Source: Candidatus Saccharimonadales bacterium (lineage in GTDB: Bacteria; Patescibacteriota; Saccharimonadia; Saccharimonadales; JANWIN01). Taken from it: a stretch of DNA of 37,919 bases. The DNA lies in assembly GCA_025449905.1 (NCBI GenBank), contig JANWIN010000004.1, positions 88,656 through 126,574 of the forward strand. The letters run 5' to 3'. Of this stretch, positions 12,084 through 19,065 are shown one piece after another (the first letter of the stretch is position 1; the number at the start of each line of letters is the position of its first letter). The notes beneath the pieces were generated by a model. It had not been told where the DNA came from, ran no database searches, and saw only the letters and a list, made by a program, of their open reading frames with translations. A program made the position numbers and the translations under genes.

Positions 12084-12425
12084 ATGACTAATTTTTCGCA
12101 TGGCCGAGCGGCTGAGGCCGCAGCCGCAGAATTCTTGAAGAAAAAGAAATTCAAGATTTTAGCCAAAAACTGGAGAACCCGCTACTGCGAAATAGATATT
12201 ATTGCCAGGAAGAAAAAAATCATATATTTCACAGAGGTAAAATACCGTCAGACAGCCCGGCAAGGCAGCGGCTTGGAATATATCACCCCAGCCAAACTAA
12301 GACAGATGGAACTGGCGGCTCGCTTTTGGACGGCAGAAAACGAGTGGCAAGGCGACTACAGGTTAGCGGCTATAGAAGTTAGTGGTCCGGCTTACGAAAT
12401 TACAAATTTTCTGACTGAGCTTTGA
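12084..12425 (+). CDS. yraN: YraN family (UPF0102) nuclease-fold protein
   Basis: 113 residues. The family has a restriction-endonuclease-like fold, and the conserved acid and lysine pattern is visible: GRAAEAAAAEFL (the helix with the first Glu), RYCEIDIIA, and FTEVKYR (E-x-K). Its cellular role is poorly defined; a DNA processing or repair nuclease role is proposed from the fold. It follows rnhB as in very many bacteria. The start is fixed by the perfect TATAAT 7 nt upstream. The end (TGA at 12423-12425) overlaps the convergent aminopeptidase gene by 26 bp, the largest overlap in the window. Confidence 0.92.
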   Translation: MTNFSHGRAAEAAAAEFLKKKKFKILAKNWRTRYCEIDIIARKKKIIYFTEVKYRQTARQGSGLEYITPAKLRQMELAARFWTAENEWQGDYRLAAIEVSGPAYEITNFLTEL

Positions 12426-15030
12426 AGAAAGTTTTGACTTCAGCTGAGGCGCGCTCTTTCCAAGCCGACTGCCACTGAATCATTTCTACGCCCCGCTTGA
12501 ACATTTTGTCTAGACCAGGATCATTAACCGATTTAAAGAATTTTTTGTACTCGGGTAAAAACTTTTTATCGCTAAAAACCCGTGCGCTATAAATTGGCAT
12601 ATAGTAGAAGCTTAAATCGCCGCCCAGATTCTCTTTTAGCCACGCCCAATTGGTAGTCAGCCATTTCCAGGTTTGGGGCCTGGCGTGTCGGTTTAAGAAA
12701 CTGTATGACACCCAATAAGCAACATCCTGAAGTCTTACTTCCTTGCTTTTTATCATCGCCAGCGTGCGCTTAATAAGCTGGGGCTGCCTGAAGGAAGTCA
12801 GGGCCGCGGCGATGGTGACTTTTTCTTCGCTAAGCTTTGCTTCATGATAAAGTCGCAATAACTTTTTATGCTCAGCTTCACTTCCAAGTCGGGCTGCTGT
12901 ACTGAAAACAAGTCCTCGGAGGTCCGGATCAACATCGCCGCCACGCTTTACGCTGGTTTTTGAGGGAATAGTTCTAAGATCTGCTGAAATGTCTTCTTGA
13001 TGGCGGATAGCTTTAAAAATTTTCTGGCAGCGTGCGACAACCGCCGGTTCATCAGCTGAAGCCGCCAAGCCCAGTATCACCGGTCTAAGTAGTTGGTCAA
13101 AGTGTGTTTCTCCAACTCTACGTTGCCAGCCTAAGCGTTTGAGCTGTTTTGAGACAAGGTGTCTGATAAAAGGCTTCATGTCTTCGCGTAACTGTTCATC
13201 ATCCATGGCTATACGCAGCGAACCTAAAAAGCCGGAAATAACTTCCCAGACTGGATAACTAGACTCATCTATAAAATTATCCAAAAAATGAAGAGCATCC
13301 AAAGTGTCAGTGTGGCCACTTTTTGCGCAGTCAATGACGTCAGTCAGCAAACCTAAACGATCAACTACCTCAAGATGGCCCTTGCGTATTAATTCACCAA
13401 AGCGTTCTAGCTGCGTACTGTTATAGGCGACCCGGTAAAAGCCGCTCTGGCCATTGTTTAGCTTGAGCTCGTGGGTATCTGGCAACTTGAGACCCTGAGA
13501 TTTATTACTGAAAAGCTCGGGTAACTGTTTGTTTTTGGCCAATAGCGGAATCGGCCAAGTTTGGGGATTAATCTTAGAGTGGTTAGGGTTAATAAAAAAG
13601 CGTTCCTGAACCAACTTTAGCCTATCTTCTTCAACCGTAGCGTGAACAATTGGAAACCCAGCTTGAGCTATCCAACTATGCATAAAATCCCTAACCGGCT
13701 TTTCACTGGCCGTTTCTAGCGCTCGCCACAAGTCATCGGTCACGGTGTTTTTATAGGCATGCTGGCTTATGTAGTAGCGAAGACCGGCTTTGAAAGCCTC
13801 TTCACCCAGATAATGATATAGCATGTGAATGGCGCTTGAGCCTTTGCCATAGCTAATCGGTGGGTCAAAAGCGGTGCGGATTTCGTCTGGATAGTTAATA
13901 GCCGGCACCTCAATAGCTCGGGTGTGCTCCAGGGCGTCAAAACGCATGGCTTGTTGCTGCTCATCAACTATAAATTGGGTCCACATTTCCCAACCAGGGA
14001 AAAGGTTAGCCAGTGCCAGATGTTCAACCCAGCTGGCGAAGCCCTCGTTTAGCCATAGGTCAGTCCACCAACGCATAGTTACAAGATTACCGAACCACAT
14101 ATGAGCCATTTCATGAGCCACTACCATACCGACTAATTGCTTATTGGCTAGACTGGTATTCTTATCGTCGACTGACAAGGCCATTTCGCTAAAAGTAATG
14201 CAACCCCAATTTTCCATTCCAGCAACTGCAAAATCAGGCAGAGCTACTAAGTCACACTTAGGCAGAGGAAATTCATAATCAAAATAATCTTCATAAAATT
14301 CCAGACATCTAACGGCTGTTTCAAGCGCAAATCCAGTGTGTTCGACAATGCCCGGCGTCGAGTAAGTCCGTACCACCACGCCGCGTTTAGTTTTAGCTTC
14401 CTTAAACTTCAGCTCGCCGTAAACAAAAGCCAGAAGGTAGGTGGGCATTAAGGGAGTAGTCTCAAAAGTCGTAACCGTTTGCTTGCCACTGGCCTTGGTC
14501 GATTTGACCGGAGTATTTGAGACAACCGCTTCGCCTATGGGTGTAGTTAAACTCAGGTCAAAAGTGGCCTTAGCTTCCGGCTCGTCAATACAAGGAAAGA
14601 CTTGCCGGGCAAAATGGCTTTCAAACTGCGTGGCAATAAGTTTTTTCTCTTTGCCAGCGTGTTTAAAATAACATGGGTAGATACCATCCATTGGCCTAGT
14701 AATCTTACCCCTAAAGCTAATTTCTACGCTGTAATTACCAGCAAAAATTTTTTGGGAGGTATGTAAGCGCAGTTCGTCCATTTTTTCATGCGTATTAAGT
14801 CGACTAACTTTTATCTCTTTATCAGCCGTGCGATCATGCCTAGTAAGCTTGGCTTTGGTTATAGTCAGGCCTTTTTGATGGAAAGTGATTCGCTGGCTGG
14901 GCGGACCGACCTTTTTGCCCCGTATCACAACCGTACCGCTAAAGCTCATTTTTTCGCGGTCTGGGATCAGGTCTAATTGATAATTAGCCGGCTGGAACTG
15001 CTCGAACAGCCGTTTCACTTTTTTAGCCAT
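12400..15030 (-). CDS. pepN: M1-family zinc aminopeptidase
   Basis: 876 residues, full length for the family. It removes N-terminal residues from peptides and is probably cytoplasmic, since no signal peptide is seen. The exopeptidase motif reads AGMEN (about 270-274) and the zinc site is HEMAH (306-310) with the third ligand E329, exactly 18 residues after the second His. A catalytic Tyr is likely in ISYGKGSSAIHML (near 394). The remainder is an ERAP1-like helical domain. For an organism expected to scavenge amino acids, it fits peptide catabolism, which is an inference. TAAAAT (minus strand, 15038-15043) is 7 nt before the ATG. The gene is divergent from nusA. Confidence 0.94.
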   Translation of the reverse strand: MAKKVKRLFEQFQPANYQLDLIPDREKMSFSGTVVIRGKKVGPPSQRITFHQKGLTITKAKLTRHDRTADKEIKVSRLNTHEKMDELRLHTSQKIFAGNYSVEISFRGKITRPMDGIYPCYFKHAGKEKKLIATQFESHFARQVFPCIDEPEAKATFDLSLTTPIGEAVVSNTPVKSTKASGKQTVTTFETTPLMPTYLLAFVYGELKFKEAKTKRGVVVRTYSTPGIVEHTGFALETAVRCLEFYEDYFDYEFPLPKCDLVALPDFAVAGMENWGCITFSEMALSVDDKNTSLANKQLVGMVVAHEMAHMWFGNLVTMRWWTDLWLNEGFASWVEHLALANLFPGWEMWTQFIVDEQQQAMRFDALEHTRAIEVPAINYPDEIRTAFDPPISYGKGSSAIHMLYHYLGEEAFKAGLRYYISQHAYKNTVTDDLWRALETASEKPVRDFMHSWIAQAGFPIVHATVEEDRLKLVQERFFINPNHSKINPQTWPIPLLAKNKQLPELFSNKSQGLKLPDTHELKLNNGQSGFYRVAYNSTQLERFGELIRKGHLEVVDRLGLLTDVIDCAKSGHTDTLDALHFLDNFIDESSYPVWEVISGFLGSLRIAMDDEQLREDMKPFIRHLVSKQLKRLGWQRRVGETHFDQLLRPVILGLAASADEPAVVARCQKIFKAIRHQEDISADLRTIPSKTSVKRGGDVDPDLRGLVFSTAARLGSEAEHKKLLRLYHEAKLSEEKVTIAAALTSFRQPQLIKRTLAMIKSKEVRLQDVAYWVSYSFLNRHARPQTWKWLTTNWAWLKENLGGDLSFYYMPIYSARVFSDKKFLPEYKKFFKSVNDPGLDKMFKRGVEMIQWQSAWKERASAEVKTFFKAQSENL

Positions 15031-15037
15031 TAGATAT

Positions 15038-15043
15038 ATTTTA
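15038..15043 (-). promoter_or_regulatory. pepN -10 box
   Basis: TAAAAT read on the minus strand lies 7 nt before the aminopeptidase ATG. No clear -35 is seen, since the expected region overlaps the divergent nusA -35. A leaderless transcript is predicted. Confidence 0.5.
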
Positions 15044-15063
15044 ACATATTTTCAGGGGTAGAA

Positions 15064-15092
15064 TTGACATTTTAAGCAAAATCAAGTAATCT
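15064..15092 (+). promoter_or_regulatory. nusA promoter
   Basis: TTGACA (15064-15069), a 17-nt spacer and TAATCT (15087-15092). A start near 15099 would give a leader of about 44 nt, unlike most first genes here, which have almost none. Confidence 0.75.
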
Positions 15093-15104
15093 TATTAGGT
15101 ATTG

Positions 15105-15129
15105 ATCCGGCCAGCAGGTCGGATTTTTT
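15105..15129 (+). terminator. Intrinsic terminator in the nusA leader (attenuator candidate)
   Basis: Stem ATCCGGCC (15105-15112) pairs with GGTCGGAT (15117-15124) across an AGCA loop: 8 bp with one G-U pair, followed directly by six T (15124-15129). It lies between the nusA promoter and the nusA Shine-Dalgarno (AGGAG, 15133-15137). It cannot serve an upstream plus-strand gene, because the neighbour is divergent. It therefore acts on nusA's own transcript, consistent with autoregulation by NusA-stimulated termination. Confidence 0.8.
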
Positions 15130-15142
15130 CATAGGAGAAACC

Positions 15143-16366
15143 ATGGAACTAGATATGAAACAACTGGCCTTGGCCGTCAAAGCCATTGCCGAGGAAAAAA
15201 ACCTGCCAGAAGAAACCGTTCAGGAGATTGTTGAACAATCTCTAGCGGCCGCTTATCGGCGTGATTATGGTGACCGCGAGCAGGAAGTTCGTGTAACCAT
15301 GAATTTGAATAACGGCGAGGTTGATGCTTATATTTCTAAAGAAGTTGTAAAAGATGTTGAGGATGAGCGTTTTGAAATTAACCTAACCGAAGCTCAGGCT
15401 GTGCGAAAAAACGCCAAAATTGGTGAAACTGTCGAGTTGCATGAAAAAGTCGAAAGTTTTGGACGGGTAGCAGCTCAAACCGCTAAACAGGTTATTTTGC
15501 AGCGCTTGCGAGAAGCAGAGCGTGAAATCGTTATGGCCGAATATCAAGACAAAATCGGCACGGTTATTAACGGCATTGTCGGCCGGGTAGAAACTAATAT
15601 TGTACGGATTGAGCTAGGTAAAGCTCAAGGCATTATGCCTAAGAGCGAGCAAATTCAAGGTGAGCGCTATTTCCCCGGCCAGAGACTAAAAGTTTTCCTA
15701 AAAGACGTGGAGCGTGGCTTTCGCGGCCCGCAGTTGGTGGTCAGCCGCGGCCATCCGGAATTTATAGAATGGCTATTTAGAAGTGAAGTGCCGGAGATGG
15801 AAAACGGCGCTGTGGAAATTAAGGACTTAGCCCGCGAAGCTGGAGTTAGAACAAAAATTGCTGTACACAGCACCGTTCCGGGCGTTGATCCAGTTGGTAC
15901 GTTTGTTGGCGGCCACGGTACGCGAGTTAACGCTGTAGTTAGTGAAATTGGCGAGCAGGAAAAGATTGACATTGTGGTTTGGGACGAAAACTCCGAACAG
16001 TACATTATTAATGCCCTAAGCCCGACCAACGTCACCAAAGTCAAGATTGATGAAAAAGCCAAAAAGGCCACGGTTGTGGTGCCAGAAGATCAGTTAAGCA
16101 TTGCGATTGGTAAAAGCGGCCAAAATGTGCGACTGGCTAGTAAATTAACAGGCTACGAGATTGATATTACAGCGGAAGGTGAAGAAGGCAAGAAAAAGCC
16201 GGCAGTTAAATCAGCTGAAGAAAAAACTCCAGCAGCGGCCCCTAAGCTCAAGAAAAAAGAGCAATTAGAGAGTAGTCTGCTAGAGGCAATCGAAGAACAT
16301 GGTGTTGAAGAAAAGACCGAACCAGCCAAAGAAGCTGAAAAACAGATGAAAAACAAGCAAGTCTAG
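15143..16366 (+). CDS. nusA: Transcription termination/antitermination factor NusA
   Basis: 407 residues. It binds RNA polymerase and nascent RNA, and affects pausing, intrinsic termination and antitermination. Domains: N-terminal polymerase-binding domain (about 1-125, with ETVQEIVEQSLAAAYRRDYG), S1 domain (about 130-200, GTVINGIVGRVETNIVRIELG), KH1 (DPVGTFVGGHGTRVNAVV) and KH2 (QLSIAIGKSGQNVRLASKLTG). A Lys/Glu/Ala-rich tail of about 60 residues follows, without the acidic repeats of gamma-proteobacterial NusA. The Shine-Dalgarno AGGAG is 5 nt from the ATG. Expression is probably attenuated by the leader terminator just upstream. The stop codon lies in a 15-bp repeat shared with the clpC operator. 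Confidence 0.96.
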   Translation: MELDMKQLALAVKAIAEEKNLPEETVQEIVEQSLAAAYRRDYGDREQEVRVTMNLNNGEVDAYISKEVVKDVEDERFEINLTEAQAVRKNAKIGETVELHEKVESFGRVAAQTAKQVILQRLREAEREIVMAEYQDKIGTVINGIVGRVETNIVRIELGKAQGIMPKSEQIQGERYFPGQRLKVFLKDVERGFRGPQLVVSRGHPEFIEWLFRSEVPEMENGAVEIKDLAREAGVRTKIAVHSTVPGVDPVGTFVGGHGTRVNAVVSEIGEQEKIDIVVWDENSEQYIINALSPTNVTKVKIDEKAKKATVVVPEDQLSIAIGKSGQNVRLASKLTGYEIDITAEGEEGKKKPAVKSAEEKTPAAAPKLKKKEQLESSLLEAIEEHGVEEKTEPAKEAEKQMKNKQV

Positions 16367-16377
16367 CACTCTTGACC
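16363..16377 (+). repeat. 15-bp direct repeat; CIRCE half-site at the nusA stop
   Basis: CTAGCACTCTTGACC occurs here, across the nusA stop codon (TAG 16364-16366), and again at 16545-16559 inside the clpC operator. This copy has the left CIRCE arm and the embedded TTGACC, but no right arm (GAGTGCTAA) and no good -10. It may be a decayed operator/promoter duplication or an auxiliary HrcA contact. Confidence 0.6.
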
Positions 16378-16544
16378 TACGGGCCAAAACTGCCAGATTA
16401 TGATATTGTCTGGCACATCTGTGTCAACCTATTGCACGACTTTTTCTTCCGGTTCAGCTCAAAGTAGCTACAGCTACATTTTGCTCTAATCCTCAGAAAA
16501 ATTCACACACTAGGCTGTCTCAGAAGCACCAACCAGCATCATAA
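16367..16544 (+). other. nusA-clpC intergenic region with two hairpins
   Basis: About 180 bp without a gene. One hairpin pairs TGCCAGA (16391-16397) with TCTGGCA (16409-16415) around an 11-nt loop. A second near 16460-16483 pairs GTAGC with GCTAC over TACA, flanked by CAAA and TTTTG. Neither has a proper U tract, so they are at best weak nusA terminators. No ORF or promoter is convincing. A small RNA is possible but not shown. Confidence 0.4.
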
Positions 16545-16587
16545 CTAGCACTCTTGACCCGCGAGTGCTAATTGATATAATGGTTAT
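16545..16587 (+). promoter_or_regulatory. CIRCE operator and promoter of clpC
   Basis: CTAGCACTC (16545-16553), a 9-nt spacer, and GAGTGCTAA (16563-16571) match the HrcA operator CIRCE with one mismatch at the first base. The -35 TTGACC (16554-16559) lies in the CIRCE spacer, and TATAAT (16576-16581) follows after 16 nt. The ATG at 16588 is 6 nt further, so transcription should start on the start codon. HrcA binding would block polymerase directly. Confidence 0.92.
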
Positions 16588-19065
16588 ATGATGCCTCAAA
16601 GTCCTGACTTTCAGGAATTTCTAAACCACCTAACAAACAATGCTCTAGCGAGCCTAAAGCATGCTGATGCCATTGCTCGCAGTTTTGGCAGTGCCTACAT
16701 CGGTACCGAACACTTACTCTTGGGAGTCTTAGCGCAGGATTCATCGATGGGTTCAAAATTATTAGAAGGCGTGGGAGTGACTTTAGATAGAGCCCGCATG
16801 GCATTAAATCTGACACCTAAAACATTAGTTATAAACATGGGTGCAAAGGGACTAAGCGAAACTGCAAAACTGACACTGAAAATGGCATATGACGTGGCCC
16901 AGGATTTTAATCAGGAATACTGCGGCACCGAGCATATTTTATATAGCATATTGAGCCAAAAGAATGCTCGGGCGACGATTTTACTGCGCGATATGAACGT
17001 TAACACCAACCAGCTAACAGCCGAATTAGAACAATTTTTAAATCGCCAGCAATATGAGGATAGTAGCCAGGCCAGTGATACTGGACGACGAATTCGCAAG
17101 CAACGTAAAACTGCCCTGGACTTTTTTGGCACTGACCTAACCGCTCAAGCCCGTCAAGGAAAGCTCGATCCGGTTGTTGGCCGAGAAAATCAAATCCGCC
17201 GCGTAATCACCATTTTGAACCGCCGGACTAAAAATAATCCAGTGTTAATTGGTGAGCCGGGTGTCGGCAAGACAGCAATCGTCGAGGGCTTGGCCCAGCG
17301 AATTGTCACTGAAGACGTGCCGGACAGTCTGCTTGATAAACGAATTATTATGCTTGATCTGGCTGGCATGGTGGCTGGTACTAAATACCGCGGTGAGTTT
17401 GAAGAGCGATTGAAGAAAGTTATGGCTGAACTGGACAAAGATTCTAAAACGATTGTCTTTATTGATGAGTTGCATTTAATAGTTGGTACTGGTGCAGCCG
17501 AAGGGGCTATGGACGCCGGCAATATCTTAAAACCGGCCTTGGCCCGCGGCAAAATGCAGGTAGTTGGCGCAACCACTACAAGCGAATACACCAAACATAT
17601 TGAAAAAGATGCGGCCTTGGAACGGCGCTTCCAGCCAATTCAAGTCCCCGAGACTAACTTCGCTGAAACTTTAGCAATCTTGAAAGGCTTGCGCAAGCAT
17701 TATGAGGCCTTTCACGGTGTTTCAGTCAGTGATGAGGTGCTCTACGACACCGTAAATCTTGCCCAGCGCTATATAAATGATCGTTTTATGCCCGATAAAG
17801 CCATTGACTTGCTGGATGAGACTTCCGCATATCTTAGGGTAGATAAAGGCAAGGTACCGCCGCATGTCCGCAAACTGCAAAAAGAGCTGAAGCTTATCAA
17901 TGCCCGTATGGAAGATGCCGCTGAAGCCGGTGACTATGAACGAGCGGCTCGAGCCAAAACCCGCACCAGCCAAATTCAAGAAGAATTAAAAAAACTGCAA
18001 ACTAGCGGTAAGGCAGCTAACAAGCTAAGTATGAAAAGTGAGGACGTAGCTGAAGTGGTAGCTCGTATTACCGGTGTGCCGGTGACTAAAGTTATACGCT
18101 CCGAAGCCAAGTACTTGCTCAACTTGGAGAAGAACTTATCGAAACATGTAATTGGCCAAAGTGAGGCAGTGGCTGCAGTGGCTAAAGCTGTGCGCCGCAA
18201 CCGCTCTGGTATTAGCCATGCCGGGCGGCCAATCGGCTCATTTGTATTCTTAGGTCCAACTGGCGTCGGCAAGACCGAGCTAGCTCGCGTATTAGCCCGA
18301 GAGTTTTTTGGTAGCGACAACTCACTCATAAAAATTGACATGAGCGAGTTTAGCGAACGACACACATCATCTCGTTTAGTTGGTGCGCCGGCTGGCTATG
18401 TCGGCTACGACGACGGCGGCCAGCTGACCGATAAAGTGCGCCGCCAGCCCTACAGCCTGGTGCTGTTTGATGAAATTGAAAAAGCTCACCCCGAAGTCTT
18501 TAATATGCTTCTACAGATACTAGAAGACGGCGTTTTAACTGATGCTAAGGGCCGCAAAATTGACTTCACTAATGCCATTATTATTATGACTAGCAACATT
18601 GGCGCCGAGAAACTACAAAAAGAGGCCAACCTTGGCTTCCACGCTACTGATGCATCAACTCAAAAAGATCTTGACACTCTTCATAATCAGAATAAAGACA
18701 AAGTTTTAGACGAACTAAAGAAAACAATGCGTCCAGAACTAGTTAACCGTATTGATAAGCTAATTGTCTTTAGAGCGCTGACACCTAAAGACGTTATGAA
18801 GATTCTAGATCTGCAAATTGAGGAGCTTCGCCAGCGCTTGATTAAGCACGGGTTAGGGCTAGAGGTTACAGCTGCCGCTAAGCAGCACCTGTTGAATGAG
18901 GGCTACGATGCCTTGCATGGTGTTCGACCACTTCGCCGCTTACTGCAAGATACTATCGAAGATCACATCGCATTGGAGATGCTGGATAGCAAGGTAACTA
19001 AGGGCGATATTGTTCAGGTTGGTATGCGTGATAAAGAGCTTAACTACGCTTCAATAACCGAATAA
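16588..19065 (+). CDS. clpC: ATP-dependent Clp protease ATPase ClpC
   Basis: 825 residues, HSP100 unfoldase that feeds proteins to ClpP. Domains: double Clp N repeat (about 5-150), AAA+ 1 with Walker A GEPGVGKT (222-229) and Walker B VFIDELH (290-296), a UVR/middle coiled-coil segment (about 425-470, [19 protein letters not shown]), AAA+ 2 with Walker A GPTGVGKT (556-563) and [10 protein letters not shown], then the D2 small domain. The ClpP-docking loop tripeptide LGF is at 682-684, so it should partner with the ClpP encoded at 32463. Two ATGs are adjacent (16588 and 16591); either could be used. It is repressed through CIRCE and predicted to be translated from a leaderless mRNA. Confidence 0.97.

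Follow-up and report, generated by a model that had tools for sequence, protein, structure and literature searches.

A terminator-type hairpin conserved between promoter and start codon of nusA in Saccharimonadales, and its proposed role in NusA feedback

Does the nusA gene of Saccharimonadales (Candidatus Saccharibacteria) carry, between its promoter and its start codon, a terminator by which NusA holds its own synthesis in check? The question is raised by the window, the whole 37,919-nt stretch of DNA analysed here, which comes from a genome of 633 kb belonging to this order. The initial annotation had placed a promoter, a hairpin, a run of T, a Shine-Dalgarno sequence and the ATG of nusA within ~80 bp, and each of these was located in the sequence (Table 1). 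Those 80 or so bp would hold the whole leader circuit.

The two promoter elements are separated by a spacer of 17 nt. The -10 element agrees with the consensus at three of six bases and is absent from the list given by the promoter scan; its position is the one at which nearly all relatives carry theirs. The stem comprises eight pairs, one of them G-U, and folding of the 46-nt leader gives this hairpin as the minimum-free-energy structure (-15.2 kcal/mol, z -3.0; one of 200 shuffled sequences was equally good). A scan of positions 14000-17500 returned eight terminator-like sites, of which the nusA leader hairpin is the richest in G-C pairs. As expected of an intrinsic terminator, the G+C-rich hairpin is followed immediately 3' by a T tract, and it is very likely that a functional terminator lies in the leader before nusA.

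Table 1. Features of the nusA leader and its surroundings (window coordinates)
Feature	Position	Strand	Basis and remarks
Promoter-to-ATG stretch of nusA	15064-15145	+	Read from sequence
-35 element TTGACA	15064..15069	+	Sequence; a -35/-10 pair at a set distance from the hairpin also in relatives
-10 element TAATCT (weak)	15087..15092	+	Ends 14 nt 5' of the reference stem C
Predicted nusA start site	~15099	+	Inferred from spacing
Terminator stem, 5' arm ATCCGGCC	15105..15112	+	Sequence, fold; CGRCC in 85/85 relatives with the motif
Loop AGCA	15113..15116	+	Sequence; 4-10 nt and variable in sequence in relatives
Terminator stem, 3' arm GGTCGGAT	15117..15124	+	Sequence; T15119 pairs with G15110, the conserved G-U wobble
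Terminator T tract, six T	15124..15129	+	A15105 pairs with its first T; hardly varies in 85 relatives
Predicted RNA 3' end	~15129-15131	+	Geometry
Shine-Dalgarno AGGAG	15133..15137	+	Sequence; three bases past the T tract
nusA ATG	15143	+	Sequence
nusA, 407 aa (NusA_N, KH domains)	15143..16366	+	ORF; TIGR01953, E 9e-114
Aminopeptidase N-like gene, divergent	12400..15030	-	ORF, profile search

As the neighbouring upstream gene is divergent, there is no co-directional gene that would read into the leader. The description of nusA as a stand-alone gene with no rimP in front of it is borne out: RimP_N was detected in none of 21 genomes, against 10 of 14 control genomes, and infB lies on a separate contig (C1) from nusA (C4) in the same genome.

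Among 100 relatives, nusA was found in 96, and upstream DNA was extracted for 90 loci. A hairpin of the form CGRCC-N4-10-GGTCG(G/A)-T(n) lies 5' of nusA in 85 of the 90 (with GGCCG as the 3' arm in one), which rules out a chance hairpin; its sequence is kept almost letter by letter across the order. In two of the five loci lacking the motif (L029 and L061), another hairpin, related or different, and a T run occupy the same place; one locus has a doubtful hairpin (L087), and no hairpin was recognised in the nusA leaders of the other two (L086 and L088). The T tract right behind the stem is as well conserved in the 85 relatives as the stem itself. The promoter is held in register too, the best -10 element ending 11-16 nt 5' of the same stem base in 80 of the 85, and the best promoter score in these leaders has a mean of 10.7 versus 7.9 in shuffled sequence. 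The loop varies from 4 to 10 nt, and the distance from T tract to start codon from 12 to 228 nt, so the hairpin keeps its place relative to the promoter, and not relative to the ribosome binding site. Promoter and first gene of the transcription unit are thus separated by a predicted terminator of conserved sequence, and the hairpin, first noted in a single leader, has been kept with nusA in evolution.

Conservation and covariation of the stem had been set beforehand as a test, and the outer pairs do covary. In the 79 distinct sequences compared, 96.7% of stem cells are paired and two-sided changes occur in 28 cells, which none of 500 shuffles reach. The covariation support rests on the three outer pairs, which vary with compensation; the inner pairs hardly vary. 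Four of these five never change; at the fifth, 75 sequences have G-U, three have A-U, one has an unpaired A-C and none has G-C. Replacement of the wobble U by C makes the hairpin ~2.3 kcal/mol stronger on average, and the G-C form of this pair is present in L194, a locus from the same class and another order.

From this arrangement we infer the start site, actual termination, its dependence on NusA and the feedback. RNA polymerase would start at ~15099; nucleotides +7 to +26 or so would form the hairpin, and the U tract would be complete at about +31. There some of the complexes would be released with an RNA of 31-33 nt, and the remainder would read on into nusA. At intrinsic terminators, NusA bound to the polymerase aids formation of the nascent hairpin and stimulates release. 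The model described for Bacillus subtilis places this aid in the exit channel, where the hairpin forms (PMC8060035). Because NusA promotes hairpin formation and release, more NusA would give more release and hence negative feedback. On this analysis feedback of NusA on the nusA leader is likely, and the hairpin is probably a promoter-proximal attenuator by which NusA limits its own synthesis. Given the predicted start, only ~6 nt of RNA lie 5' of the stem, and therefore no upstream antiterminator, leader peptide or RNA-binding site would fit; an antiterminator or leader peptide was considered and rejected, there being no room between promoter and stem. As the RNA-binding domains of NusA would find almost no RNA upstream, its effect would be exerted via the hairpin in the exit channel. 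Control, if any, would act on the hairpin or on the polymerase. Against feedback, NusA might not be needed for termination at a stem that is followed by a good T tract.

The strength of the hairpin bears on this point. Its energy is -11.9 +/- 0.8 kcal/mol in 85 genomes; 30 tmRNA loci of the same genomes gave 26 terminator candidates, whose energy is -10.5 +/- 3.7 kcal/mol and which have no common stem sequence. The tmRNA terminators were taken as the control, the terminators 3' of nusA being too few to serve. Since they vary freely in stem and energy, the sequence and strength of the nusA leader stem seem to be constrained beyond the need to terminate. The narrow range of energies resembles a fixed setting and no antiterminator is visible 5' of the stem, both of which would suit a terminator that cuts nusA expression by a constant factor independently of NusA. 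We regard such constitutive attenuation as improbable, for it does not need a near-invariant stem sequence of the kind that the tmRNA terminators of the same genomes do without, and leader terminators before nusA or rimP recur in distant phyla.

Stem conservation is to be read with caution, because some tRNA terminators keep their stem sequence within families. Apparent terminators 3' of tRNAs in families f6 and f3 have common GTCGTCC...GGACGGC-type stems with a T6-C tail; examples are found at L160:601-634, L161:572-605, L162:586-619, L163:563-596 and in L171.

Returning to NusA feedback, a near-invariant stem in 80-odd divergent genomes, set against the free variation of tmRNA terminators, poses the question of which component, in or near the polymerase, recognises a terminator stem by its sequence. 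It is a tentative suggestion, on the doubtful side, that the upper five pairs, including the conserved R-U wobble, form a sequence-specific site that NusA, or the polymerase itself, reads in the exit channel. If this were true, NusA would sense its leader through the sequence of the stem as well as through hairpin strength, and a 31-nt sequence-addressed autoregulator would be fixed across an order of ultra-small bacteria.

The hairpin is largely a property of nusA. With a covariance model of the hairpin, the nusA leader is the top match in nearly all relatives in which nusA was found, and matches elsewhere mostly score much lower. Fifteen of the better matches away from nusA were inspected; several are terminators 3' of tRNAs or genes, and the rest are weak or lie within coding sequence. 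Genome-wide use of the hairpin was rejected, as the eight raw matches to CGGCC-N-GGTCGR in the window's own genome fall below the reversed-pattern control, and one other short-loop match inspected there has no T tract 3' of it. In 404 kb of the same genome, 11 of 408 ORFs have a terminator-like structure within 150 nt upstream; four others of the 11 are without a co-directional neighbour, and these four gave no Pfam match. Among these candidates, no recognisable gene other than nusA was seen to have a leader of this kind.

This specificity weighs on the proposal that the terminator senses another polymerase-bound factor (e.g. NusG) or the growth state, NusA being one of several inputs. In B. 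subtilis, NusG and NusA act jointly at most intrinsic terminators, and NusG aids hairpins with weak A-U or G-U pairs at the stem bottom (PMC8060035); most of the nusA leader stems end in such pairs. The gene downstream is nevertheless nusA in every genome, and a general sensor of this kind, having no counterpart at another recognisable gene among the candidates, is very unlikely. Still less likely is a 5' stem-loop that guards the end of the mRNA or tunes translation and is no terminator. The hairpin does lie at the extreme 5' end of the predicted mRNA, and in the window the Shine-Dalgarno sequence is only three bases past the T tract, but such a stem-loop explains neither a T tract conserved as well as the stem nor a start codon that may be 12 or 228 nt away. 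A DNA operator, an inverted repeat for a repressor just past the promoter, would agree with the nearly invariant half sites but is hardly credible and was rejected, because the two arms lie 4 to 10 bp apart in different relatives, more latitude than a repressor dimer bound to a single face of the DNA would be likely to tolerate, and the T tract is left unexplained.

Leader attenuation with proposed feedback by NusA has precedents. The rimP-leader (RF01770) contains a terminator with no visible antiterminator (PMC2965389; Naville and Gautheret 2010), and NusA feedback has been proposed for it (PMC2965389). Like the nusA leader described here, it is a short terminator with a sequence-conserved stem that belongs to the transcription unit of nusA and lies in its leader at a variable distance from the gene. 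Its stem is GGGc...gCCC, whereas that found here is CCGGCC...GGUCGG, and it precedes rimP-nusA-infB, whereas the Saccharibacteria hairpin precedes a lone nusA. Rfam has no family at the nusA leader: RF01770 gave no match in 14900-15250 at E up to 10, and none above cut-off in 145 Patescibacteria, a weak test in that only one of 14 control genomes passed. By model, stem motif and gene order, the Saccharibacteria leader is outside RF01770. In Streptococcus agalactiae, termination at an intrinsic terminator 31 nt past the start site of rimP-nusA-infB has been mapped, and negative feedback by NusA proposed (PMC4448216). The geometry is the same as in Saccharibacteria, although the S. agalactiae leader stands before rimP instead of nusA and its termination was mapped by experiment, that of Saccharibacteria being predicted. 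The metY-rimP-nusA-infB operon of Escherichia coli is repressed by its own NusA (cited in PMC2965389) and has terminators t1 and t2 upstream of rimP (PMC6511841), both of which it shares with the reading proposed here. Unlike the Saccharibacteria leader, that of E. coli is long and multi-promoter, and includes a tRNA gene as well as sites for RNase III.

The view of the circuit as unusually minimal was therefore overstated, given the rimP-leader with no visible antiterminator (PMC2965389) and the stop at 31 nt in S. agalactiae (PMC4448216). The kind is known. The novelty lies in an order-wide form in Saccharibacteria, before a lone nusA, that has a stem of its own and keeps a G-U wobble. Neither Rfam nor the literature searched, in which subscription journals were scarcely covered, yielded this form with its particular stem and without rimP. 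Attenuation in the NusA leader would thereby extend to Patescibacteria, with nusA alone and rimP missing from the genomes tested, which suggests that the attenuator goes with nusA itself rather than with the operon.

Beyond the order, the hairpin model gives few matches in the phylum sample, and among the matches listed there none is at the place of nusA. Other stems do occur right behind a promoter before nusA, such as AAGTGGGT-GCA-GCCCACTT (L197 and L198) and AGTCGGATTTC...GAAATACGACT (L188), and family f34, with divergent NusA, has yet another stem with a T tract (L350-L352). Hairpin and T tract are kept despite a changed stem sequence in L029, L061 and L350-L352. At a score of 15, leader terminators were found before nusA in 31% of other Patescibacteria versus 0.3% in shuffles; a simple scan gave no terminator in about half of those sampled outside the order. 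Since different promoter-proximal stems recur before nusA, leader termination looks older than any single stem sequence.

In short leaders no second conserved element was seen 3' of the terminator. Long nusA leaders in some relatives contain inserts, one of which is a dispersed repeat; further long, strongly folded inserts between terminator and nusA are found in L018, L062, L064 and L029, and some of these may be more copies of dispersed repeats. The dispersed element, a structured sequence of about 145-185 nt, was recognised in two long leaders (L281:1501-1681 and L321:1501-1685, from genomes G067 and G050). A model made from these two copies finds it in 55 of 100 Saccharimonadales genomes, with up to 25 copies each and 14 in the window's genome; no copy was found in the window. 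Copies in genome G000 include L308:4146-4333, L309:10473-10656 and L341:1501-1682. Two-sided changes occur in 42 of 46 pairs, and the covariation score is 0.758 versus 0.228 in shuffled sequence, in an alignment fitted to the model. The element is mostly intergenic, in the window's genome often a few bases from a stop codon, and elsewhere occurs in either orientation. It has no match in Rfam and may be either a structured mobile repeat or an RNA that has yet to be described.

Downstream of nusA, a CIRCE-like inverted repeat, CTAGCACTC-N9-GAGTGCTAA, at 16545-16571 of the window overlaps the promoter TTGACC-N16-TATAAT (16554-16581) of a Clp ATPase gene at 16588, which suggests control of that gene by HrcA. 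Similar repeats are found 3' of nusA in many relatives, and a single left half of the repeat, TAGCACTC, lies at the nusA stop codon (16364).
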